DNA of 64,000 nucleotides from Crambe crambe (taxonomy: Eukaryota > Porifera > Demospongiae > Poecilosclerida > Crambeidae): assembly GCA_963924555.1 (NCBI GenBank), contig OZ004588.1:3348001-3412000 (forward strand). Direction: 5' to 3'. The notes below the pieces were generated by a model. It was not told the origin of the DNA. It did not search any database and saw only the letters and a list, made by a program, of their open reading frames with translations. Within the stretch, counting starts at the first letter, position 1. Each line of letters begins with the position of its first letter. A program made the position numbers and the translations under genes. Of this stretch, positions 6,344 to 62,600 are shown in pieces.

Positions 6344-9000
6344 ATGCATAATAACATTCATCCGGTTTTTTCATTGACTACCTGTAGGTTCCGCTGAGTC
6401 ACGTCGACTGTATAATGAGGCAATGAAGCAGGGACATGTAAAGTCCCAGATCAACAAAGCCCTCCTTTATGGGGCTCCAGGAACCGGAAAATCGAGTTCA
6501 ATTGACCTTTTCGTTGGTAACCCTCCAAGGCAAGCCAGAATAAGCACTCCTCTAGCTGCTCGTCCAATTACAATGATACATATGGGTGTAACCAAGAAGG
6601 AGTGGAAAAAGCTTTCCTCAAAAGAACAGAAAAAAATTCTAGCGAGGGCCATATATGCTCAGCTTCATGCCAATGACAAAGATTCTGGCGAGGATTCTGT
6701 CTCTGATGAGGGATCTGGTGAGGATTCTGAATCTGGCGAAAATTTAAGTTCCGATACGACTCTTGAGCACAAAGAAGCTCATAGTAAAGAAAATAAGTCG
6801 ACACATGACGTACATCCACAAGTACACCCAGCAACTCATTCCAGTCCAACACCTGCTAGAAAAACAAAGAAAGGTTCTCAATCAAAGGCACTGCCATCCA
6901 TTAGCACACATGAGGAACTAATGGAACTATTGGACGAGATCTCCAAATCAAATGAAGCCTTACCTGTCTTCCGGAAGGTCAAATTGATCGACTCTGGTGG
7001 ACAACCACAATTTCATGAGGTGTTACCTGTATTTCTTCGTCGCATGTCCCTCTACATATTCGTCTTCAAGCTGTCAGAAGAACTCGCCACCAAGCCCATG
7101 GTAGAGTATTTTGGGGAGGATGGGAAGCGTGTGGGGACACCTTACCGATCAGCTCAGTCCAACGAGCAGCTATTGAAGCACTGCCTTCGCACTTTGCACA
7201 CCCACAGATCATCTCCCGATACTAAAGGTGAGTGCTCCAAAATCATGATCGTAGGGACCCACAGGGACGAAGAACACCTGTGCACGACCGAAACACGAGA
7301 GCAGAAGAATAAGAAGTTAGAAAAGCTGTTGCTTCCGATGTTCCGAGAGGAAGTCATCTACTACAAACTGGCAGAAAATAAGTTAATCTTTCCAGTCAAT
7401 GCCAAAAATCCTGAAGAGCTTGATAAGGATACAGCTAGAGATATCCAAAGTGTAGTCCTAACTAAGTGTATGCCTGATCCCATTGATGTGCCCCTTCAGT
7501 ATTTCTCTTTGGAAATTATCCTTGAAGAAGTTAGCCTTTCTTTAGACAGAGGGGTATTGAGCAAAGAAGAATGCCTTAGAGCAGCAGATAAGCTTTTCTT
7601 TAATGACCATACACTGGATGGAGCTCTCCAGTTCCTAGATGAAATTTCATCGGTCTTTTATTTCCCCGAGGTTCTGGATGGTGTTGTATTCACTAACCCT
7701 CAAGTCCTCTTGGATAAGGTAACTGAGTTGGTGGAGATTACCTATTGCTTGAGAGAAAATGTTGGTTGTAAAACACTTGGTGCACTTTCTGGAGGCTGGC
7801 AGAAGTTTAAAGATCATGGCATTGTTAGCTTAGAGCTTCTGCAAGAGAAAGAGTTTGATAAGCATTATGTGCCTGATATCTTTACTCCTGTTGATCTGGT
7901 TAAGCTCTTTAGAAAGTTGCTCATCATAGCTGACTTTAGTGCTTCAGAGTACATCATGCCTGCTCTCCTTCCTGTTCTTGAAAATAAGAAAGTTCATGAT
8001 TATCGTATCACTAAAGATTCACCTGTAGCTCCTCTTGCTCTGGACTTCCCACTTGGAGGTCCTCGTCTTGGTACTTACTGCAGTCTCACTTGCTTTCTTG
8101 TCTCCAATGACAACCAGTTTCCACGTCCTTGGAAAATAGTGCTGCTTCCTCATTCCAACACTCCAGCTTGCCTGAATCGAAACTGCACCCAATTCATGGT
8201 ACCTGGCTTTCCTGGCTCTATCACTCTGATTGACACATTTTCTCATGTTGAGATCCATGTGGACACTGCCAAGAAAGTTTGTAGCAAGCTCTGCTCTTTT
8301 GTCTCTCAGGCTGTGTTTGCAGGTCTAAAGAAAGCCATGTTAGTTCTTGGGTACAATAACTCGATCCCTTCAAAAGCACTTCTTTGTCCTTGTGGGGCTA
8401 AAGATCCCCATGTTGCCACTTTCGGGGATGGTCTCTGGATCTGCAGTCAAGATAACAAAGTATTTGGAGATCTCACTCCTAGACACCTGCTGTGGTGTGA
8501 TCAACCAGATCATTCTCCTATGAAAGGTTGGTCAAATTATATATATAAAAAAGAGGCAATTGTTACACTTATTGATCTTGTTTTATTATAACTTATTTAG
8601 CTAGTGCCTTAATTCCTTCACTGCTTTGACTTTTGATAATTTTATCTTTATCATGGAATTTGTGATTATTTCATTTGCAGGAGCTTCTGCCTCTTCAACT
8701 CCTACTATGATGGAAATCATTCGCTTCCCTTCAAAAGATTCCAAAGTGAACTTGGCTCAAGAAATCGGAACTAAGTATTTCGAATTTGGAACTTTCTTGC
8801 TTGAAGATGCCACTGGTGCTCGTATCAGTGCCTTGAAAAAAGAGTTGAGAGATAATGCAGAAGATATCAATCGCGAAATCTTCCAAAAATGGTTGAGTGG
8901 AGATGGGAAAAAGCCTGTTTCATGGGAGACTCTAATTGCTGTACTTGAAGACATTGGATTGAGTGAACTAGCAAAATCGATAGCAGAAGTCAAACAATAA
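6007..9000 (+). CDS. Roco-like GTPase with C-terminal Death domain (3 exons)
   Basis: Exons 6007-6019, 6388-8526 and 8681-9000 join in phase 1 at both introns to give 823 residues, stop TAA. The first ATG encodes only MVKK plus one base; the donor is GTAAGA and the acceptor CTGTAG. The large exon opens with a P-loop (GAPGTGKSS, about residues 33-41), then an acidic Ser/Glu linker, a G3-like DSGGQPQF (about 206), a G4-like GTHRDEE (about 294) and a G5-like VNAKNP, followed by a winged-helix/COR-like region. The last exon carries a Death domain (about 735-820) ending in WETLIAVLEDIGLSELAKSI. Roco proteins are GTP-dependent signalling switches and Death domains assemble signalling complexes, so a cytoplasmic immune or cell-death role is inference. 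The middle exon would be functional from its own ATG at 6423 if the tiny first exon is wrong. Confidence 0.87.
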
Positions 9001-35121: not shown

Positions 35122-35564
35122 ATGGCAGAGTCCGTGGCTGAGTCACAATGTGAGGTGGATTCCTGCATCAGAGGCTATCATGAATACAGAGCAATATGGA
35201 CAGCAGCTATTGGAGTCTCTTTGTTGTATTAGGGGAGCCTACTAATATAATAGATCAATACGCTGTTGCTGTAATTAGAAGTGGACTAGTTGTTGGACAT
35301 TTGCCTAAGAAGATTTCAAGAGTTTGCTCAGTTTTTTTGAGGAGAGGAGGTACCATATATTGTATAGTCACCAACACCAGGAGATATTCCGCAGACCTCC
35401 CTCAAGGTGGATTAGAGATCCCCGTAGCTACTTTGCATTTTGAAGGGATCAATTCTTTGAGAAGACACTTAAAAAATGCATGCCCAATCTCAATTCATAA
35501 TCAGTACTTAAATCATCTGCTAAAATTATATTATAAAAGTTACTACCGTACAGCGGTTTTTTAA
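35122..35564 (+). pseudogene. HIRAN-domain protein, frameshifted
   Basis: From ATG 35122 (MAESVAESQCEVDS) the frame reads GYHEYRAIWTAAIG and hits a TAG near 35231. One frame over it continues as GEPTNIIDQYAVAVIRSGLV, then VGHLPKKISRV and RRYSADLPQGGLEIP. The pattern GYHxYxxIW, NxxDxYAVAV, VGHLP is that of HIRAN domains, a DNA-binding fold. Small HIRAN proteins occur in invertebrate genomes, so this one may be carried by the adjacent transposon. One frameshift breaks it. Confidence 0.65.
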
Positions 35565-35980: not shown

Positions 35981-38373
35981 TCAATCACTATTCACATCCA
36001 CTTCTTCTATCTCTGAATCTTCCACACCAAGTGCTTTATTGTCAACATCAAGTGCTTGACATATTCCAGCTTCGTTCACTATGAATGATGGATTATCAGC
36101 AATGTGCTGAACTGTCTTGACAAGCCATTTGGCACCAAGTTCTTTCATAGCTGGTAAACATATATAGGTCAGCAGGTTCCAATCTTGATCCAACTGCTCT
36201 GCTATTTGACTTGAATACCAGTCTTGAAATTTTCACCGAAGAAAATCCTTCACAGTCTTATTAACAGAGATGTCCACTGGCTGTAATAAATCTGTAGTAT
36301 CAGCAGGCAACAAACAAACATGAATCGAATTCTCTTCAAGAATAGCTTTAACCTTTAAAATTATCCACAATCACAAGGGCAGACTTGTCTTCCCCCAAAT
36401 TGTCTCTTTGCTTTTCAACATATGGAATGATTATGGCTTTGATGTATTGAAACATTGCTTCTTCATTTGACCAATGTTTGGGTGAATGTGTAATATCCCA
36501 GTCACTTGGAAATTTGAAATGGGGGTGACAACGGTTTGTCTTGACAGTGGAAGTGACATCATTTAGAAATTCCTTCTTCAACTGTGAAAAATTGGCAACA
36601 CTAAATTTGTTCTTTGTTCTGGTGGCTTTTCACTGGACAAATTTCATCCACACAAGAAGTGAATTTGCCCATGGTCTGTAGCCACCAAACTCTTCTAACT
36701 TGAACTTGTCATATGTCATCACAATACCTCGAGCAGCAGCAACAACAATACATGCAGATACAACACCTCCAGCTTCTCTCAGTTTCAGCAAATATGCTTG
36801 CACAACCATTGTCATAGGGTGGAATGTCCCCCTCTTAGAATGACCCGGGGGTCAGGGTGAAGTGACCTGGGGTCACTCTAACCTAGGCTGGAATGACCCC
36901 CCTGTGTCACTCAGCCCTAGGGTATATTGACCCCTCTAGGATGTAGTGACCCCCTGGGTCACTTTGCCCTTTGGTATAATGACCTCTCCCTCCCCGTCTC
37001 TACATAGGATGTGGAATTAGACAATCAAATCAATTACTTTGGTGAACATCAAAACCACTTGATACTTTATTTTTCTTCCATGCTGCTGCTGGTGCTGTGA
37101 CACATTGCTTATGAAATCACTGAGTCTTGGCATGAACTGCAACTGATCATTTTCCATATTCAGTTACAAAAAATCTCAAAGGTAATTGCTGCCAAACTTG
37201 AGCTTTTTTCTGGTTTTTCTGCTGTGGAAATGATGTCAGCGCCGATTTTCTAACGGTTGAAAAGATGCTTCCGAAACTTATGTAATATATGCAACAGAGC
37301 AAACAATCACTGCCATTACCCTGAATTTTTGTACATTGACGAAACATATATCCAGTAGAGTAGGAATATAGGAAATTTATCGGGGGGAGGGGGGCAGGGA
37401 CAATAATAAGTTAATCACAGTAATAGCAACAAAATTCAATCCTTCTGTCATTAAATTGCATTAGATAACAGTCAGCAAGCAGCAGTGAAATTGCTGACAT
37501 CACACTGCAATGACATGTAATTGCTTGGTGCTTGGTCTTACTTTCAATATACTGTTCATATTTTTTTTGGGGGGGGGGGCAGTACCTCTCCATCTATAGT
37601 ATTGGGGGGCAGTGGCCCCCCTGCCCCCCCCCTCTCCCCCCATTCCTACTCCACTGTCTGATATCATAAATATAGTCTCGTGGGCCAATCCTTTACCAAA
37701 ATACACCTCCTGCCACACTGATATCAACGGAACTGTAAAGAAATATTGTTCTGTGATCATGAAGTGCCGAATACTTATTAGAGCATGCGCAACTCACATG
37801 TACACTTTACTTATGTGGGGGTCACTTGACCCTGAGGGGGGTCATTTAACCCTAGATTAGAGTGACCTCTGGGTCACTACACCCTAGGGTAGAATGACCG
37901 GGGGTCACTATACCCTCCAACTCCGTATCTAAATAGTCCCCCAACAAAAGTGGCCTACCACGCTTTCTTTCAGGAAGCTCATCCACTCATTATTATCTGT
38001 TTTCCGTTTCTCTCTCACACTTTCAAGGTAGTCCTTGATCGAGATGGTACTACTGTTGATTTTCACCCTCAACTTTCAAGAGAAATGTCCAGCAGCTGCT
38101 GAAACTCCATGCTGACTGCATATCTGCCCATATCAGCACAATCCTTAGGACTATATTAATAGAATTGTTATCTTTTTCCTAAACTAGCTTAGCTACCTAC
38201 GTAAGTATATACTTCATATATGGACCACGTTTTTTCTGTTTCTTAGCTTCAACCATCACTTTGTCCACTTCCTTATTAGCGAGCGCTACTGCCCTCAAGG
38301 TCATAATGTTGGATAAAGATCCACTGGGGCTTGGAAGTCCATCCTTAGCCTTGAAATACTTCTGTAAAGACAT
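35981..38373 (-). pseudogene. pogo/Tigger-like DDE transposase, broken
   Basis: Read from ATG at 38373: MSLQKYFKAKDGLPSPSGSL, a basic KKQKKRGPYMK, RPLLLGDYL, then after an insertion VQAYLLKLREAGGVVSACIV, later YRPWANSLLVWM, HPHFKFPSDWDITHSPKHWS, ALVIVDNFKG (catalytic-core Asp) and LLPADTTDLLQPVDISVNKT. The last motif (TDLLQPxD) is diagnostic of DDE_1 pogo/Jerky-type transposases. Several stops and shifts break the frame, and a 1.1-kb element (36815-37918) lies between the N-terminal and middle parts. It cannot make an active enzyme. Confidence 0.8.
36815..37918. mobile_element. Nested element with GGGTCA-type terminal arrays
   Basis: It splits the pogo-like gene between RPLLLGDYL and VQAYLLKLRE. 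Both ends are arrays of short repeats built on TGACCC/GGGTCA (about eight on the left, 36815-37010; about six on the right, 37810-37918) in inverted orientation, with 'taggGTgtaatgaccc'-like spacing. The centre has C/G runs (37566-37640) and no recognised gene. Family unknown. Confidence 0.65.
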
Positions 38374-38525
38374 GTCTCGAGTATGTCAGAGCCACGTGTT
38401 ACCATAATTTAAATTTTCATACAAATATAATTTCTGGTAAGTAGTTTTATTCAGACAATTTAATTTCGGAATACTTCCAACTTCCGAAAATATTTAATTT
38501 TTGAATTTTTCTGGAACTACAGTAA

Positions 38526-39780
38526 CTAGTATCAATACTCTAAGTGCTAAGTAGATTTTTCAGAGCTATCTAGATCTTGGGGTTAGTAGGTGAATGCATT
38601 GCACATACAGAAAGAGAGCAAAGAGCATTATAGAAATCCAATAGTCACTGAAAGGACAACAAAGAGGCTATGTAACTGAAGTTATTCTGTAATGTATGGA
38701 AATGAGTTGTCTCACATAGCCAACCTCTTGATTACAACACTGAGATCACTAGCATATGTTAGGAAAGGCTATCGTAGAGGTTTTGTCCCTAGGACCAGAA
38801 GAGGTGTGATTGAGTGAATTAGACTCTTGCTCTCTAATACAATTTCTTTCTTATTTCTTGGCTAGCAATAGTCATGCAAAATGTTAAATTTTAATAATAA
38901 GGTCAGTCAGTCCTATTGAAGAGAGCTGCAAGAAATGTGAACAAACTACGTATAGTAGTAAGAGACTTGCTGTATTCTATATTCTGGGGGAAAGTTTAGT
39001 ATTATTTTGGACAACATCTAGGGGATGAAATTTCCTCTACACCTCCCCCCCTTATGGTTAGTTAGACACAAGAATTAGGTAGTTTGAGATTTCCATGCAA
39101 TGGTTAACAGTGACTTCTAAATGTTTGACCTCGTAACTTCCCCTCTAAGTCGAAAATCCTCTTATCTGTATGCTTTGGTACATTATGAAAGAGCCACCTT
39201 TGGAAAAGCTGGACCATCCACAGCTACTTTAATTAGGTATTGTGTCTCTGAGAGTTTGAGTTGAGCATTTGCATGTGATGATTATTTTACATATACACCA
39301 TAGAATATGTGGTTCATGATTGGAAGACTGTCAGTTTAGCAGACTAGATCCACCCTTACATGCTCTTACCTGTACAGAAACTATTATGTGTGTCTATAAT
39401 TGATTTTGTATTTAAAATCATTGAGTGGGAAATGGGAGTGGTTATGGGAGGAGTATTTTAGTTCCTCCTCAAAGAAGAATCATATGCCTTCATTTTTTTT
39501 TCTAGATTTACCTACTGAGCATACAAAGTCACAAAAATGGCATACAATATGAGTACATAATTTGTTTACTGTGCGATGAAGACATGTGAGCTTGACCAAA
39601 CCCATTTCTTGCATGTTAGTGATGCAATTCTGGATTGCTGCATGAAACATGGAAGTGAGGGGATCATGCTTTTTGCTAAGTAGGAACCTCACCTTTTAAA
39701 TAGCCTAATAGATCCGTTGATAGCATAAACTTCCCCTCCCACATTGATTATTAATTGTATTATCCTCAAACATATACACT
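38526..39780. other. Intronic, nothing recognised
   Basis: Between the pogo-like composite and the next transposon; no repeat pair, gene or RNA seen. The 70-codon minus frame at 39480 has no recognisable motif. Confidence 0.4.
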
Positions 39781-40335
39781 AGTCTGGCATAGCGGCGACC
39801 CTTACCAACCCAAGGGAAGGAAAAGGAATTAGCATCAACGACTTGTGTCTCACATCAAGATTTTGACGCCACCAATCAGATCACTTGATGGATAATTATT
39901 GCATCTTTGACGTACACGTGACGTATAATAATGAACGCGCACACTGCAAAAACAGGGTACTAAAGTCGAGAGTAAAAAGTACTAATTGTAAGTAAATTTG
40001 ATACTCACTGACACAAGATATGATTGTACTAATGATTAGTAGCACTGCTTTGAAGTGAGAGAGTAGGTTCTAGTTTTTAGTATCAAATGAAACCTGTTTT
40101 TAGTAAAGTAGTAGTTTGTGACACTTACAACTAGTACAAACAAACATAATACTGAGAGCATTGAACTAAAGACTAGTTCATATGTACACTTGGTTCTATA
40201 CATTTAAATCTTTATCCTAGGGAGGTAGCTACTAGGTTCAAGTATTTCCTGTCTTAAAGCTAGTAATTTGAATTGCATGATTATGTATTGGATATGGCAT
40301 AAGTATAAAGAGAGAGAGAGAGAGAGGGTGTCACA

Positions 40336-42269
40336 TTAAAAGTCAAGACATTCCTGAGTTTCTGATTCATCTTCTGTTTCATTAGTATCATCAGCATCAT
40401 CACTCTCTTCCTTACAAAGCCTTTGCTGAATACAATTTAGTGCCCTAAAGAGATTGGAGTAGGCAGTACTGATCTTTTTCTTAGCAGGAAGGTTGTCAGC
40501 CATCAATATTTCTTGCAAAAACTCGAGCACTTGTTGAGTAGATGGATTGTATGATAGTTCAAAAGTATAGTGTATTGCCAAGAGAGTAAGAACGGCTGAG
40601 AATACCCACTGACCAATTTCATACGTGATGACTTTTCTATTACAAATGGCTACAGCCGAAGAGAATCCAGAAATGCTGCCAACACAAACTATGTAAGGGT
40701 GAGTGTTATCGGCATTCTCTTTGATTGCTTCATTAACAGTCTATAAATATAAAGCATAATAGCTATAATTTTTTCACCTCACATTCACACAATAACCATA
40801 CCGGAGCAAAACACACAAGTGAATTCATCATTTTATCTGCCGAAACTTTTCCTCTTGGCTTGAGTTTGTCTACCAATAATTCCAAACAGTACACTGTAAC
40901 AACTATAACAAGAATAATAATTATTATATAAAATAATTATACATGCTCTACCATTCATATCATCTGACTCGGGCTGATGTCTTCCAGATTCAACTGCAAA
41001 CCGGACTATTGCTGGAGCTACAGCAGTAGCCCAATGGTTCTGCAGAGAACGGATCTTTTTTCGGACATCATCTATGGATTGAAATCTTAGTCCAATGATA
41101 TGGTACATGTCCTGGATCAACTAAAATTAATATATACATGATAAATTCACCAACAAGTATCACATCCCTATAACTTACATATATAGGCTTCTTGAAAAAG
41201 GGATAATTCTGTAAAGTAGTTGTAACTCGTGTATTGGCTGTTAAAGATAGCATTGTATTCCTGCGACTGGCAAAGGTGAGAGACATTAATCGGGTGACTT
41301 TTCCTTCATCAATACGACTTTTTTTGCCTTCCTTTTGAAGCACACTCAAATGTGACTGAATTGCTTCATCATCTTCAACCTCATCGTGTCCTGAAGAAAC
41401 CACAGTTTTCCTTTTCTTTGTAGTATTTTCACATGATTTTCGATCAAGGTATAAATGGTTTTGAAACCATCTAACTATCTGTCCATACAATCCGGCCTAT
41501 AACAAATATATATCTTTTTAACAAAACAAACAAACAAAAAACAACAACAAAAAATCTTGGAATTCTATAACAAACCTCTGGTGAAGATTTATTTCCATTT
41601 CCATAGTCACCCAAACTCTTAGGAGCCAACTCTAATAAAGATTTCGCCAATGACCTTTTATCTGTAGTAGAAACAGAACAATCTCTTTCCCAACAATATC
41701 CTCGTAGTGCCATACATGCTTCTTTGATTAGTCGATTTCTCTGTGTGGAAGTATAGAAAGCGTCATTTTGTATGCATTTCTTTAAATCTGGTGAAAATAC
41801 AGGAAGTTTAAAGCTATCATCTGATGTTTCACCAAGACATTTTGTCATTTCAGGGTGTCTACGCTTTCGTGAAGAGGAAGAGTGGCTACTACATGGTGTA
41901 GATGCACGGCTATTTGAAGAAAATGAGAAATGAGATGTATTATCATCATCCAGTTCACTCAATTCATCAAGCAGATTCTGGGTATCTGTCTTCTCACTTG
42001 AGCGAGCCGTCTGTGAAATCCTAAACAAGTTTGAGCCAAGCAAAAATTTTTCATTGCCCGGATAAATAAGTGAAAAATCTTCTCTTGTGAGATATATGAA
42101 AGCTTTCCCATCAATATTTCTCTCTAAATGAAGTTATAATAACTGAGAAATTCTATTTAATGCCCACTCACCACTCACTCTCGAGTTCCTTGGCATCTTC
42201 ATGAGGCACATTCATTTCCTTTGTCAAACATGCTAAGAGTTCCTTACAAGTCATAGATTTTATGTCCAT
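40336..42269 (-). CDS. CACTA accessory protein with SAM-like N-terminus (6 exons)
   Basis: Exons (minus strand) 42269-42179, 42123-41576, 41496-41179, 41120-40952, 40893-40802 and 40740-40336 close in frame to 540 residues with TAA. Introns are 49-91 bases except one of 79 and one of 61, all GT-AG. Residues 1-60 (LACLTKEMNVPHEDAKELE, then RNIDGKAFIYLTREDF and FLLGSNLFRI) match the SAM-domain pattern. A Ser-rich linker with RKRRHPE follows, then a conserved-looking body (IVRWFQNHLYLD, WATAVAPAIVRFAVESGRHQ) and an acidic tail (EESDDADDTNETEDESE). It is divergent to the transposase with about 220 bases between starts, suggesting a shared promoter. In CACTA elements a second protein usually helps bind subterminal repeats; that role here is inference. 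Confidence 0.85.
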
Positions 42270-42486
42270 ACAGCGTTGTAGATCTATACCTGATATTTAA
42301 GCCTATGATTAACCTACCTATTTGCTTATCTGCATTATGGTAACGTACCAGCCATAAATTGCACTGATACAATTGAAGGAAGGAGACAATCAAGGATAAA
42401 GAAGCAAAAATCTCACAACCGTGCACTTCACACCAGTCCTGTGTCCCGCGCGCTCAGATTGCATTGACCTTTGACCTTATACAAAG
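42270..42486. promoter_or_regulatory. Bidirectional intergenic region of the CACTA element
   Basis: 217 bases separate the start codons of the two divergent transposon genes. It is likely to hold both promoters; 'cccgcgcgctcag' near 42446 is a GC-rich spot close to the transposase start. No TATA box is obvious. Confidence 0.4.
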
Positions 42487-45400
42487 ATGGCCTCTTGCTG
42501 CCAACTATGCTTTGTTGAATATAGTAGTCTATTCGACTTAGTCAGTCACGTTAGAGCTGCTCATTCTTCGGATATGAACCTTAATTATGTCTGCAAAGTG
42601 GATGGTTGCCCTAGGATGTTCTCAAAGACTAACACCTGGTATAAGCACGTGATACAATATCATCATGAGGAGTATTTTAAGAAGAATGCATCCTCAGAGG
42701 TGAAGTATGGAGCAGAACCTGATGATGATGATGACGATAATCAAATGGAATTATCTGTGGGTGGAGCATGGCCCGAAGGCAGTGATGGTGAAATGGATTT
42801 TTCTGGCGGTGGAGCATGGCCTGAAGGAAGTGATGATGGTAATTATTTACCAACTACAATTTTGAGTGAGAAAGTGATAGCTGGGAAACTTCTTAAAATA
42901 CGAGAGAAGCACCTAGTGTCACATGCTGTAATCAATGACATCATGGAATTGGTGGAAAGCATTTGTAATGATATGTCTACTAAAGCTATATCTTCAATAC
43001 ACCAATCTGGTGATGAATGTGGTATGGATACCTCATCATCATTCTTTCAAGAGCTACCACAAATCTTTGAACGATTGAATTCACCGCTGGCTTCGATTGG
43101 TACAGCTTACAAACAACAATCTTTTATTGCAAAGAATCTTCCATATGTGGTAAGTATCATTATTTCACTTAGCTGTCAATTTTATATGTATTTGTCATAA
43201 GAAACCTATTTGGCATGAAGTTGGAACACATGTGGCAACTGTTGGACGAAGTGTGACCCCAACTAATGTATCTGATGGTTTTTATTATGTCCCCTTCCTC
43301 CAGTCCATAAAAGCACTATTAAAAAATCCTTCTACATTTCATCAGGTAATAATTATTATATATATATTATTATGCTAATCAATCAACTCTTGTATTTAGG
43401 TTATGTCTGGTGCACACCAAAGTCCTGATAAATTAATGTATGACATATGCGATGGCACTATGTTGGAGAACCAACAAACTGATGTACTTCAGATTATTGC
43501 CTACTACGATGAGGTTTCAATGACAAATCCACTGATGTCTAGGTCTAAAAAGTACAAAATAGGTACGTATGCACTTCAGTATGCATGGGGGTGCTCTAAT
43601 TAGATTTTATAATAGGTGCCATCTATTTTATGTTGGGAAATTTGGATCCAGCACTGCGTTCAAGATTGGAATCCATAAGTCTTATTGCTCTATTTAACAC
43701 AAATTTATTAACTGAGTACTCGATAGATGACATTCTCAAGCCTTTCATTGAGGACTTGAAGGATTTAAATGCTGTTAGTTTAATATTTAACTTTTATACT
43801 AATTATAGCCATGTATATTTTTGAAGCCTAGTGGATGGCCTGTCAATATTGATGAACATCAGTACCATATAAAAGGTAAATTAGTGGCCTTTTTGGGAGA
43901 CACTCCTGCTATTAATATGGTAGGGGGATTTAAAGAAGGTGTGGGTATGGCCATGCGCAAATGCCGGCAGTGTATGGCAACATATGATCAGATACAAACA
44001 AAGGTTAGCTACAGGTTCATATGTGCTTTGATAACGAATAGTTTATCTTTCCTCTCAGTTTACAGAGAAGAAATTTCAGATGAGGAATAAAGAAGGATAT
44101 ACCAAGCAGTGTATGTATATCAATGCGTCAGATATTTCTGAGTCTGAAAAATTGCATTATTCAAAAGTGTATGGCATAAATCGATCCCCGATCCTTTTGG
44201 AGTTGCCTTATTTTGATGTCACACAACACTTACCACAGGATTTGATGCATGTATTACTTGAGGGTGTTTTTCCCCTTCATGTGGGACAGCTATTGCAGTA
44301 CGTCATCCACGAGTCCAAAATTCTGACCCTTTCTCAAATAAATAGTCGCATCTTAGCACATCCATATGCCTATTTTGAAGAAAAACCATCACCCTTGAAA
44401 GACTTAGAATTCGAAGGAAGTCAGTCAGGTTATAGTGCATCCAATAATATTTATCAGTTTATACTGTTCTTTGATCTTTTCAGCTGCTCAGATGTGGGAA
44501 CTGATGAACATACTTCCCTTCATTATAGGAAGTGATATGCCACCAAATGATCCTCACTATCAGTGTTTTTTGCTACTGAGTGATATTTCAAAGATGCTTT
44601 TTTCTAAAGTGATTGCTAACGATCAGATTCCACTCTTACGCCTACTGATAGAGGAATATTTAGAAACTTTTGCTAGCCTTTATCCTCACCGACCATTAAC
44701 TCCGAAGATGCATTACTTAGTGCATATTCCAACTCTTATTCAAAGGTATAAGAATGGTTCCCACATGAACATGCAAATTCTTTTTATCTCTTTAAGTCAA
44801 CATTCTATAGGTATGGTCCACTAATCAATCTTTGGTGTATGAGGTTTGAGGGTAAACACAAACAGTTTAAAAATGCTGCCAGAAGCACTAGTTTCAAAAA
44901 TATCCTTAAGACCCTCACTTACCATCATCAACGGTTAATGGCTTTAAATTTATATTATGATAATTCATTTGCATCAGTGACTGTTTCTACTGGGCCAGGT
45001 GTGTTTAGCATGATACCATCTTGCATGTAAATATGTATTGTTGTATTGTTACAGCTCAACCTGTTACTGTGATGTCCATGCCCTATGGTGATGCAATTAA
45101 GATTCATTTTCCATCTTTGCTGAATGAAGACTTGTACAGGTATTCAAATTAATAAGCTGTGTGTGTGTGTGTTTGTTAGCCAGCTAGTCATGAAAGTAGC
45201 TATAACCAGGATATTATATTTGGCAGATCTCATTGGGTTAAAATAATAGGAACGATGTACAAGACAATGAAGTGCTACATGATGATTGGAACTACTGAGT
45301 GCCAATCTGGTAGTGTTCCACAATTTGGTTTATTGTACGATATTATTATATACGGTCAAGAACCCAATATAGTCTTCGTTTTTAATAAAATGGAAACTCT

Positions 45401-45572
45401 CAAATATGATTCATGTTTTGGAGCTTATGAGGTAGTATCACTAGCAGAATATTGTTGTTTTTATAGATCATCTATTAAATGTTACCATCTTTTTAGTGCC
45501 ATTCAGCATGGCAATCATGTAACTAGATACATCAAGTCTAAATATGATCTCACTGTTTATTGCAACTATTAA
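42487..45572 (+). CDS. EnSpm/CACTA-like transposase (10 exons)
   Basis: Exons 42487-43149, 43202-43345, 43400-43562, 43616-43773, 43809-44003, 44059-44428, 44484-44745, 44811-44998, 45055-45139 and 45227-45572 give 857 residues with no internal stop. Two C2H2 fingers lie at the N-terminus (C5-C8-H21-H26 and C36-C41-H54-H59), then an acidic linker with a duplicated GGAWPEGSD. Candidate DDE residues are D306 (AYYDEV), D407 (AFLGDTPA, followed by GGFKEGVG and CRQC) and E509 (MHVLLEGV). A C-terminal block reads TPKMHYLVHIP and MRFEGKHKQFK. The GDTPA/CxxC and DLMH motifs resemble CACTA tnp2/Plavaka-type enzymes. Introns are 35-87 bases, and exon sequence is undecayed, so recent activity is plausible. 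Catalytic assignments are by motif only. Confidence 0.88.
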
Positions 45573-46111
45573 ACTATTTTGACATTAGGCTACTATCTTT
45601 TAGTAGCTGTAGATAGAAATAAGTAGGTGGGGCTATCTAAATGTAGGAACTTGATACTAATAATGAGTATTATGGACTAAAACTAGGAAATTTACTAAAG
45701 ATTAGTAGTATTAACTATGTTCAAGTATGCATTATGCTCAATTTTAGGCACTGTAATTGAAGCTTGCTTGAATCTATAATTTTAAGTGATTTAACTATAA
45801 TTTTGAGTATCTAACTACAATTATTTTAAGTGTGCATAATAAAATCCAGAATTTTCTTCTGAAACATAGTAGGTTTATCTCAAACTTGGAAATGCCTCTT
45901 TATATTAGGAAGGTGGTGTTTCTAAATATAGCAACTTCATACTAATAATAAGTGTTGTGCAATAAATCAAGGCAAACCGTACTAATTATTAGTATAATAT
46001 GTCCTAGATTTGAATTCAACCTAGTCAATTCGGTGGAAAGCTACTTAATTCAAGATTTTATGACTAAGAATAAGTTTTTAAACCTAACTTTTAGTACCCT
46101 GTTTTTGCAGT

Positions 46112-46693
46112 GCAGCCTTTAAGCTTTCAATGCTCAAGATCGATTGCAGAGACATGGAAGATAAGTAATGTATCGGCTGCGGTGAGCTGACAGAAGGGAT
46201 CTAGAAGAATCATATCTGACTCCACAGACATTCTTAGCATTGAAAGAGACAAGGGCCAAGAAGATGATAGATTTATGTAGAAAATGCTTTAATAGCTATG
46301 TCAAAGTTAAGAAAAAACTAGAGGTATCTAGTCGAAGTTTTAATATAGCTATCTAGTTATATTTAGCAACTTCACTACAGGGCATCCACCAGAATTTGAG
46401 CAAGGCTCTTGATGCACGCAAAATTATGATTATTCCGCGCACGTGATAATCTTGTTGTAAATTAACGTTCCTGGAATTCCAAAGTGACAAGTCGTTGATG
46501 CTAATGTCCTCAGACCCTTTTCCTTCCCTTGGGTTGGTAAGGGTCGCCGCTACGCCAGACTACATATACACACCCACACACAAACATCCCAGTGCCTCAC
46601 TCTATATGGAACCCTCCATGGTGCTTGATTAGTACTATAAATTCTGTGGGTGTGTCTTATCTGAAGTAATAAAAGTGTTTATGTCCTCTCCAG
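46112..46693. other. Right part of the host TIR element and intron end
   Basis: 46113-46560 is the right portion of the GTCTGGC element; 46561-46693 runs to the acceptor of exon 3 ('tgtcctctccag'). No gene of its own. Confidence 0.6.
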
Positions 46694-47548
46694 ACCCCAG
46701 CCTCACCTCTCACAGTTTGCTGGCTGCTCTGGAGACTGTGGGGAATGCAAAGAACATTAGTGAGATTAATGATTCTGAAGGTGACTTGGAGCGTGTACTT
46801 CAACTACCACTCTCTAAGATGAGGGAAATGAGATTGCAATGTTCAGCAGAGGCTGATTATCGCTATCAACTGATGGAATATTATCTAAAATGTCATGAGT
46901 GTCCTGGGTGGAATCACCTGGCTGGGGGACTTCTCTACAAGGAACAACACAGCGCTCTTGAGAAAGTGAAGGGGAATGTTACAGCTGATAAAGGTAAGTG
47001 TGTTGTAGATGACACATACTAAGTGAGGCAAGGGTGAATATAGTCATGTGATTGGTCAACAGTGGATTAATAAATGACTCTCCTAGTTCAAGACTATATA
47101 TGTACAACACTAACAGTGTCCACAGTCCAAAATACACTTTTCCTAGTTAAGAACAAGTTTATTACAATGTTTTTCCAATATTTGCTAGTCCCATGGTTTC
47201 ATAATTAGCTATAGTTCTCTGGCCTAGAAGCAAAGAGTCACAACTTGAATAATGAAATTTGTGAGAGCATCTTATGTCACCTCACTCTTGTTTAAGTAAA
47301 TTTCCTGGAACTCCCTTAATCTTTACTGGAATAGATGACTGAGAGTATTTTCTTATATCTAGTTACATCTATAAATGAAAGGCTGGGACAACATTACTAT
47401 AATCAAGTCATGATTATTAGTACTTCATCGTCTTCTGTCATTTAATTCTACAGTGTCTTGCCCTCCTCCAAACGTGATGGACTTCCTGTGTTTCCCCCTA
47501 CAAAACTCAAATAATGTGAACTTAACCACAGAAATCGAAGCAAAGTAA

Positions 47549-59654: not shown

Positions 59655-62600
59655 CAGGGGCGGATCCAGAGAAGGTTTGACTAAGTTCGTCCGAACCCCC
59701 CCTTTTTTTAGGGCTGACTATAAGGACTGAAGGGCGGCTAGCCTTTATGATCCATGGTCTCTGCCTGCTCAGCAGAAGTCTCGCGTAGCCAGGACTAGCT
59801 CACTAACTCTTAGTACATAGTTCGATCGATTGTAGTATTCTAATTAATGCACGCTCACGTGTACAAAACATTATTAGTCATTTTTTTGGTGAGAATTTCA
59901 TTTGTTCAGTTCGTTGTTAAAAGACAAAAGCCTGTAGGTCCGCTAGCCAGCCATACTTAGGAATTGTCTGAGATGACACATCAAAGGAAGTTAGACTCTT
60001 TTTTTATCCAGCCAAGGTAACTTTATCTCTTAAGATACCTAGCCATTATCCATAAATAAGTCGTAGCTCAGCTCAGATTGAGGCATTATCTAACCACCAT
60101 TGTTTTAACGTTTTTAACGTTTCAAATGTTAGCCACTGCTACTGTTTACAGCAAACGTCAGAAAACCACAGCCCAAGCCCTGAGCCCCAGCTCAGTTTCT
60201 ACATCTATGATTGATTTGAATTAATCTTCTCTGGATTTATCTTCTCCACCTGCCAATCTCCAATCTTCCATCTTCTCAGTGTGATGATGCACATTGTGTT
60301 GAGTATGATATTATTGATGATCCTCTTGATAGTGATGATTTCCGCCATGTGGTATTGAGCATGATAATATATGCGATGATTCTCTGTGGTATCATGATGC
60401 GGAGGAATCTTTGTCTCGTGCAGGTGCCTTGCAACCCTGTAATATTGATATATATGATGATATTGGCTTATTATTGCGTTCAATGCCGCAATCAGTAGTT
60501 CGTAATTTACCTCTAAAGAAAAAAATATTCCCTTTAAACCTAACTCTAGTTTTTAATTTCCTAGCAGATTTATAGATGGTTGTAACAGGGCTTGTCAATA
60601 TAATTACTTGTTAGATAATCCATGGTTTGTATATAGTAAGGCTGAAGATGGTCTTTGTGTACTTTTTGCAAATGTTAAAGGCCTAGGTCAGTTGGTATGT
60701 AAAAAATTTGATCATTGTACTAAGAAATCTACAAAATTTGCTTCTCATAACTCAAAAAAATATCATCAGCTTGCTATGACTCAAGTAGATGCTCTTAAAA
60801 CTAATATGAATAAACCTGGTTCTTCCATTGAAGATCGCATTCGGCAAACTAATAAAGAGGAAGTATTAAGGAATAGGTACATTATAAGATCATTAGCTGA
60901 AGCTATTTTGTTTTGTGGTAGGCAGTGCATATCTCTCAGAGGGCATAGAGATGACAGCACAGCTGATGCTGAGAATAACGGGAAATTTTCTTGCTCTAGT
61001 GGATTTTGCTGTAAAATCTGGAAATAGAATCTTGGGTGATCATCTTGAGTCAGCTGCTAGGAATGCCATATATACTAGCAAGACTACTCAAAATGAGATT
61101 ATTGAATGCATTGGTGAACACCTTGGAGATAAAATACTTAAAGATATAAAGGCAGCAAAATGGTTTTCTATTCTATGTGATGAGGTGGTTGATGTTGGGA
61201 ATAAAGAACAAGTGTCTATTGTACTCAGATTTGTGGATGGGCAAACTATTAGGGAGGAATTTTTGGATTTTGTTACAGTAGAAAGGATAACAGGAGAAGT
61301 ATTAGCAAATAAGCTTAAAGATATGTTAATTAGTTATGGTTTGGATATTGGTGATTGTCGGGGACAAGGGTACGATGGTGCTTCCAACATGTCTGGTAAA
61401 TCTGGTGTACAAGGGCGTCTTATGGCGGTCAACCCTAAAGCTATATATGTGCATTGTAATTCACATATCCTTAATTCATGTATTGTTCAAGCATGTAGCC
61501 TACAGGCAATTAAGAATATGAATGCCACAGTGACTGAAACAGCTCATTTTTTTAATAATAGTTCTAAGCGGCAAAATGTTCTTGAGAAAGTTATTGACAA
61601 GACAAGTGGCATAGTTAAAGTTAAAGACCTGTGTCGTACTCGATGGATTTATCGACATGAAGCCTATGAGAATTTACTTTTTAAATATCTTGTAAAGTAG
61701 TGGCAGCAATTTCAGAACGAGATTCAACATATGGGGAGATGAATTGGGATGGCAAGACGATAATTGCTGCTAATGGTTTATTCAATCTTTTTCATTCATT
61801 ACATCCTTTGTGGTAACAATGAATGCCATGGCAGTCATTAAACCTGTCAGTATTAAACATTGTGTATGCCTACTCTAAAGTCAAAGATGTAATAGATGAG
61901 CTTGGTGACATTCGTAAAGATGATAAAATTATTCATTCTTGGTATGTACAGTCAGAAGCTGTAGCTGCAGAGGTTAATGTAGTACCTGAAGTGCCATGGA
62001 TAGAGTGCCACAGGGATAACGTTGAGCATGCATCAACTGAAGAATATTACCGCAGAACGAATGGCACAAATGCGTGAGCGTTTTGGTGATACTCAAATTA
62101 TTGCTTCCAAATTAATTAATCTGGTAGCTACCTTCTGTAATTTGTAATGTTAATTTTTTGATGATTTAATTTCTTTTTATAATGATGATTTGCCCAATCC
62201 ATCTGTTGTTGCCACTGAGATTTTGAGATGGAAGGCTAAGTGGGAGAGACAAGGTGCAGAGGATCGACCTGAATCTCTGGCAACTGCCATCTAGCAATGT
62301 GATAAGGATTTCTTTCCTAATATTTATGCACTGCTACATCTTGGTTGTACTGTACCAGTCACTTTCAGTGAGAATGAAAGAGCCAATAGTGTACTTAAAA
62401 ACTTGAAATCATTTTTACGTAGCACCCAGGGACAAGAACGATTGTCATCCTATAGTTTACCTGTAGATCTCGATGAAGTAGTAGAAAGATTTAAACTAAA
62501 ATGTAATAGAAGAATAAACTTATGAATAATTCCACATCATTATCACTTTACACTTGTATTCTTTTTTTCTATCCGTAAATTTATACTTTACCGATAAAGT

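Follow-up and report, generated by a model that had tools for sequence, protein, structure and literature searches.

The element described here can be compared with the CMCT group of transposons, which, in a recent survey (Kojima 2025, PMC12730594), takes in EnSpm, Mirage, Chapaev, Transib, Plavaka and others, and is characterised mostly by CA..TG ends, together with target duplications of 2-5 bp and C(2)C and H(3-4)H motifs. The same survey gives EnSpm elements CAC..GTG ends, 3-bp duplications and an acidic triad with a C(2)C motif between the second D and the last E, and gives Plavaka elements ends of the form TGT..ACA or CATCA..TGATG, with duplications of 2 bp in PlavakaA and of 2 or 3 bp in PlavakaB (PMC12730594). 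A further report puts the CACTA duplication at 3 bp (PMC4158355); for animal CACTA elements, CCC ends and 2-bp duplications are described (DeMarco 2006, PMC1636069; PMC4298943), the duplication of SmTRC1 being shown by paralogous sequences without the insertion (PMC1636069; PMC4298943). The Spm products are described there as coming from one alternatively spliced unit (PMC1636069).

Here we analyse a 64,000-nucleotide stretch of the genome of the sponge Crambe crambe (assembly GCA_963924555.1, contig OZ004588.1, positions 3,348,001 to 3,412,000 of the forward strand), which we call the window and whose coordinates are used throughout. Positions 39942-46112 hold a real, complete and young CACTA-type transposon, ordinary in kind and unusually well dated. 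It is very probably an autonomous cut-and-paste CACTA/EnSpm-like element with the 2-bp duplication of the animal type, recently inserted at this site. Outside plants, two-product CACTA transposition has, to our knowledge, hardly been studied, and an intact CACTA element whose limits are known to the base is of use there.

The limits of the transposon, which is 6,171 bp long, are set by a perfect inverted repeat and by paralogous sites that do not contain the element. Its terminal inverted repeats (39942-39964 on the plus strand, 46090-46112 on the minus strand) are complementary at 23 of 23 positions and begin with CACTG, giving ends CACTG..CAGTG of the 5'-CAC..GTG-3' form; by 4^-23 arithmetic, an inverted pair of this length would arise by chance in 6.7 kb with a probability of about 3e-7. 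With up to 3 mismatches allowed, the 143-Mb assembly holds the 23-bp end at no other place. Exact limits come from the empty sites. When the element was left out and the two flanks were closed up around one CA, the joined sequence gave 68 matches in the genome, many of them running across the junction because the insertion target is a dispersed repeat; identity of 100% was reached solely by the window's own two flanks, and no empty site identical to them at 100% was found in the assembly. Seven of the eight junction-spanning sites that were fetched carry a single CA where the window reads CA-element-CA, and these clean sites, on contigs C3, C6, C9, C11, C16 and C17, have no added bases; in the eighth (L062), sequence has been deleted across the insertion point. 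Because seven of the eight have this single CA, the element spans exactly 39942-46112, with a 2-bp CA duplication at 39940-39941 and 46113-46114. A 3-bp duplication was considered and rejected, CA being 2 bp at the empty sites and 2 bp also being the commonest length among the miniature elements discussed below. The host repeat around the transposon (about 39782-46563) has inverted ends of its own (TAGTCTGGCATAGCGGCGACCC...) and many copies on several contigs.

The same flanks date the insertion. Two segments of C11, the contig of the window (C11:1704700-1711600 and C11:2282400-2288250), run parallel to positions 36587-47203 and do not contain the element. Compared with the window flanks, segment L061 differs at 101 of 4395 aligned bases (2.3%) and has 23 indels that are not a multiple of three, and segment L062 differs at 98 of 3897 (2.5%) and has 22 such indels. 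Had the element been present and drifting since these splits, the indel and substitution rates of the two comparisons predict 13.6 (L061) and 14.8 (L062) disabling hits in its coding sequence, where none is observed, for which P(0) is 1.2e-6 and 3.9e-7, respectively; the corresponding 95% age bound is about 0.0025 substitutions per site, on a rough model that assumes neutrality, equal indel rates in and outside genes, and set nonsense and splice rates. Because the genes are intact though the flanks differ by 2.3% and 2.5%, the insertion is suggested to be younger than the split of the flank duplicates.

Between the ends lie two genes, back to back. The transposase gene (42487-45572, plus strand) was modelled with 10 exons (42487-43149, 43202-43345, 43400-43562, 43616-43773, 43827-44003, 44059-44428, 44484-44745, 44811-44998, 45055-45139 and 45227-45572) encoding 851 amino acids without a stop, and the second gene (40336-42355, minus strand) with 7 exons (42355-42349, 42289-42179, 42123-41576, 41496-41179, 41120-40952, 40902-40802 and 40740-40336) forming an open frame of 552 amino acids. 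The splice sites of both models were chosen by hand, and all 15 introns are GT-AG and 49-87 bp long. An earlier reading of the same DNA (the original prediction) had described two genes on two strands, in frame and without stops, between identical 23-bp CACTG termini, and it is borne out on each of these points; the 16 exons that it counted become 17 (10 and 7). A version of the transposase with an 11th exon (intron 45432-45506) is also open and gives 826 amino acids; it was rejected as first choice, the read-through tail aligning better with the tail of the relative on C10.

Decayed relatives elsewhere in the genome bear on these models. The nearest two-gene relative, L053 on contig C16, has the same back-to-back layout; both of its gene starts are missing, the remaining pieces adjoin, starting from residue 195 of the transposase and residue 329 of the second gene, and the transposase match stops at residue 484. 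Aligned to the window transposase, L053 is interrupted by three gaps and changes frame once, in each case at a modelled intron, and its second-gene match has three edges (residues 329, 386 and 419) that fall at, or no more than one residue from, modelled exon starts. Judged by alignment, these breaks at the predicted introns independently support the gene models. A further relic, L054 on C13, retains residues 129-535, the greater part of the second protein, with no transposase found adjacent; in the genome search with the second protein, the only matches beyond its own locus were those on C16 and C13. Differences by codon position between the window and L053 number 86/52/143 over 263 codons of the transposase and 72/45/105 over 173 codons of the second gene, and those between the window and the L054 second gene number 102/80/166 over 281 codons, in a comparison whose block filter leans to conserved codons and in which synonymous change is saturated. 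Third codon positions differ most, and both genes therefore look constrained as proteins in the past.

Two further observations concern these relics. Inside the second-gene relic of L053 lies an apparent insert (L053:4140-7569) with 26-bp inverted ends that are 96% complementary. An end of a C16-type sister family, L073 (C3:1386697), matches L053 over 54 bp at 96%, and the 1.4 kb fetched there held no second inverted end.

Residues 4-60 of the transposase (42496-42666, plus strand) contain two C2H2-like zinc fingers, with weak Pfam matches below cut-off and a match to GLI fingers in the PDB (E 0.0028); the three PDB hits of the protein are zinc-finger chains only. Pfam matches over the protein were to Plavaka (1.6e-5, 24.7 bits against a cut-off of 26.3) and to Transposase_21 (0.011, below the curated cut-off). 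Catalytic-type residues lie between 43508 and 44262 on the plus strand: D306 (43508-43510), D401 (43899-43901), C422 (43962-43964), C425 (43971-43973), H499 (44248-44250) and E503 (44260-44262). The protein has D, D and E with C(2)C (C422-x2-C425) between the second D and the E, and all six residues are kept in aligned relatives on C10, C1, C8, C5, C14 and C6, an alignment that represents about three lineages, since the relatives on C10, C1, C8 and C5 are mutually close, and that includes the C6 relative only from residue 408. At the H(3-4)H motif, H499 is present, with Q495 four residues and H492 seven residues before it. At the Q495 place, nine other distinct segments divide into four with H (L012, L018, L019 and L022), two with P (L033 and L037) and one each with Q (L035), R (L032) and V (L034); the absence of histidine is thus not peculiar to the window copy, though several of the relatives compared are decayed. 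Together with the CAC..GTG ends, the acidic triad with C(2)C and the weak Plavaka and Transposase_21 matches agree with the EnSpm/CACTA-like class given in the original prediction.

The second protein had no database match above cut-off. Its first 80 residues show a weak SAM_PNT match (0.037, 14.5 bits against a cut-off of 24), and its N terminus a match to the ERG Pointed domain at 1.2. The layout of a SAM/Pointed-like N terminus followed by a C-terminal region is one that we take to be SAMD3-like, as a lead only, with membership not established. Viral contigs scanned with the second protein gave 7 pattern matches, none of which was confirmed. The papers retrieved for SAMD3 together with transposons do not, judging by title and abstract, deal with an element of this sort.

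Outside the genes, short repeats cluster at the two ends. The left noncoding end (39942-40335) holds six copies of TACTAA/TTAGTA (shuffle mean 1.16; 1 of 1000 shuffles reach 6) and the right noncoding end (45573-46112) eight (shuffle mean 1.50; 0 of 1000 reach 8), and the middle 5,237 bp hold three (shuffle mean 3.88). Subterminal repeats are a feature of CACTA elements, and the TACTAA clusters are alike in this respect: repeats are present at both subterminal regions, as in EnSpm/CACTA. The subterminal word CACTGACACAAG at 40006-40017 (plus strand) recurs near the second-gene-side end of both L053 (at 8433) and L054 (at 6215), where it reads CTTGTGTCAGTG.

The two start codons are separated by a 131-bp interval (42356-42486), presumed to be a two-way promoter, within which lies a perfect direct repeat AGGTCA-A-AGGTCA of the DR1 type (AGGTCAAAGGTCA; 42465-42477, minus strand). 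This 13-mer has 833 copies in the genome against 8 for its reversed control, and the transposon carries in it a motif much over-represented in the genome. It is perhaps a host promoter motif and may be of the nuclear-receptor kind. Among 92 fetched loci that were checked for it, only nine have it, all of them overlapping the element, and other transposons lend it no support.

A DNA search with the whole element returned the element itself and three matches (64% over 585 bp, 74% over 132 bp and 95% over 37 bp), and it found no derivatives with internal deletions. With the transposase protein, at least 71 matches were obtained, nine of them the gene's own exons and 62 others at 22-56% identity, counts that are a lower bound in that 53 of 241 first-look candidates were scored. 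The search for near-identical copies that the original prediction had proposed as a check was therefore negative, with only the three DNA matches above and transposase relatives at 22-56%, and the locus as one of many near-identical copies was rejected on the DNA search, the unique 23-bp end and the protein identities. A different transposase family, with copies on C10 (L055), C1 (L056) and C8 (L057) that are 98.7-99.7% alike over about 5.1-5.2 kb, has its core (query residues 245-807) in a single open stretch without the introns of the window gene; the right ends of these copies lie near ACTGTGTAG, so that a further young family, ending differently, is present.

The first 14 bases of the element, CACTGCAAAAACAG, have 89 occurrences genome-wide, two of which are the element's own ends, whereas the reversed control has 0. 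We sampled 19 fetched stretches holding 20 of the other 87 ends; 18 of the 19, L083 being the exception, share, as judged by eye, a recognisably common start of about 40 bases, and a right end (at up to 3 mismatches) is present in 14, delimiting 12 elements of 166-186 bp, one of 110 and one of 579. The sampled ends are mostly those of miniature inverted-repeat transposable elements (MITEs) of about 180 bp. Among the 14 two-ended copies, the duplication is 2 bp in nine (TA in seven, TG in two), with a 3-bp match in one. Twelve copies (L078 and L091 were left out for length) lie 1.1-15% from their majority sequence, and pairs of them differ by 1.1% at the closest, 8.9% at the median and 22% at the farthest. 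Apart from the element's own two, every 14-bp end is more than 25 kb from each of 45 merged transposase places (the element counted as one), which were drawn from the protein search in which 53 of the 241 candidates had scores. As the putative mover of these MITEs, the window element fits, and so would an earlier relative bearing that end; because they carry the matching 14-bp end, the element family may, as this suggests, be an older resident of the genome. With a single intact copy whose age is given by duplicates of its flanks, and with MITEs that have the same 14-bp end, the question of what moves the MITEs becomes directly testable.

These features outline how the element could work. One two-way promoter of 131 bp would fire both genes. 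The transposase would bind the 14-bp end and cut the element out, and the same transposase may also move the miniature elements of about 180 bp with the common 14-bp end. In maize Spm, TNPA acts beside TNPD; by analogy, the second protein might bind the subterminal repeats or bridge the ends. Read from its DNA, the element is perhaps still active today.

Several points weigh against this reading. No second copy was found by DNA search in the 143-Mb assembly, which gives no sign of multiplication. The Pfam matches of the transposase are all under curated cut-offs, the transposase pieces of the C10 and C14 relatives gave nothing in Pfam at 0.01, and the first histidine of H(3-4)H is Q495, histidine also being missing from this place in five of the nine other relatives. 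TACTAA is not clustered at the comparable end of L053 (1 in 332 bp) or L054 (2 in 246 bp). The likeness between MITEs and element stops at about 14 bases, and blastn of five stretches found no more. The 3' end of the transposase is uncertain, as is the first coding exon of the second gene, which is weak and 7 nt long, with ATGs in exon 2 possible instead. To these are added the assumptions of the age model given above and the deletion across the site in L062, which leaves that segment with no clean pre-insertion state and makes L061 the cleaner witness.

How far the intact sequence reflects present activity is where the strongest alternative lies. It is quite possible, falling somewhat short of an even chance, that the element is intact in sequence and silent, for example methylated, and heading for decay, as the lack of copies and the decayed state of the C16 and C13 relatives would suggest; set against this, an insertion so young means that the element moved recently, and the closest MITE pair is only 1.1% apart, which is relevant only if the window element moves MITEs. 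Rather unlikely, in our view, is a very recent horizontal arrival of the family, in which a single element came into the genome or population and has so far left no copies. A single copy with a unique 23-bp end and no internal-deletion derivatives, the youth of the insertion, and a GC content of 35.6% in the element against 39.4% in the rest of the window would all agree with such an arrival. The relatives with the same gene layout and common intron positions in this genome, the only eukaryote genome searched, speak against it, as do the 12 MITEs with the same 14-bp end, whose distances of 1.1-15% from their majority sequence mean that such ends were probably present earlier. The recent arrival put forward in the original prediction accordingly stands for this insertion, through the empty sites and flank dating, and is not shown for the family in the genome.

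A more far-reaching version of the autonomous reading, which we regard as improbable, makes the locus the last mover left to the several dozen miniature elements with its 14-bp end, competent for cutting, with both genes driven from the 131-bp promoter through the host-wide DR1 motif; if it were true, movement of the element would be coupled to a nuclear receptor of the host. Much less credible is domestication, in which selection keeps the locus as a host gene pair and not for mobility: the single copy with intact genes could reflect such selection, and a perfect DR1 motif of host type stands between the genes, but both ends are still perfect, the motif clusters are present, and closely similar segments without the element make it look too young for a fixed host function. 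That the insertion is old and the empty paralogous sites arose by precise loss is the least likely of all, since, although cut-and-paste excision exists and L062 is deleted at the site, seven of the eight fetched sites, on six contigs, have one CA and no added bases, and an old element should show lesions.

The surroundings of the transposon were surveyed by running Pfam on 20 of the 44 open reading frames of at least 95 amino acids outside it. One was transposase-like, a DUF4371 match at 60897-61697, which we take to be a hAT-like remnant and which is surrounded by stop codons in each of the three plus frames. To this extent, for 20 of the 44 frames, the survey agrees with the statement in the original prediction that the neighbouring transposon genes are all broken. 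Elsewhere in the window, a long open reading frame at 6378-8997 has a weak Roc match and one downstream of it a weak Death domain match, both under cut-off, and a frame at 35184-35561 has a weak HIRAN domain match (0.00069, under cut-off). In the genome at large, a repeat family was seen as outward-facing CACTACAAAAATGCAAATAATA pairs about 2.4-2.9 kb apart (C1:5926185/5928541, C14:513145/515749, C15:4105399/4108258 and C16:6535886/6538398).

Set beside known systems, the element would work like a CACTA element and pairs CACTG ends with a 2-bp duplication. No published two-gene or SAMD3-bearing CACTA form was recognised in a literature search that had Repbase and most subscription papers outside its reach; the likeness of the second protein to SAMD3-like proteins lies in its weak SAM/Pointed-like N terminus (SAM_PNT 0.037; ERG 1.2). 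With the TRC kind of animals (SmTRC1; Spongebob) the element shares a CACTA-type transposase, spliced transcripts (in the window, spliced models) and a 2-bp duplication, whereas TRC ends begin with CCC and the window element begins with CACTG and has a separate, divergent second gene. The EnSpm/CACTA elements sensu stricto of plants and fungi resemble it in their 5'-CAC..GTG-3' ends and their acidic triad with C(2)C, and differ in duplicating 3 bp where the window element duplicates 2 bp; Spm, moreover, is one alternatively spliced unit, in contrast to the two back-to-back genes found here. Plavaka gives the best Pfam match, below cut-off, and PlavakaA also has a 2-bp duplication, but Plavaka ends are TGT..ACA or CATCA..TGATG, against CACTG..CAGTG in the window. 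The element therefore has neither the 3-bp duplication of strict EnSpm nor the CCC ends of TRC, failing the former on duplication length and the latter on end sequence; with a duplication within 2-5 bp, CA..TG ends, and D/D/E with C(2)C, it fits the CMCT group.

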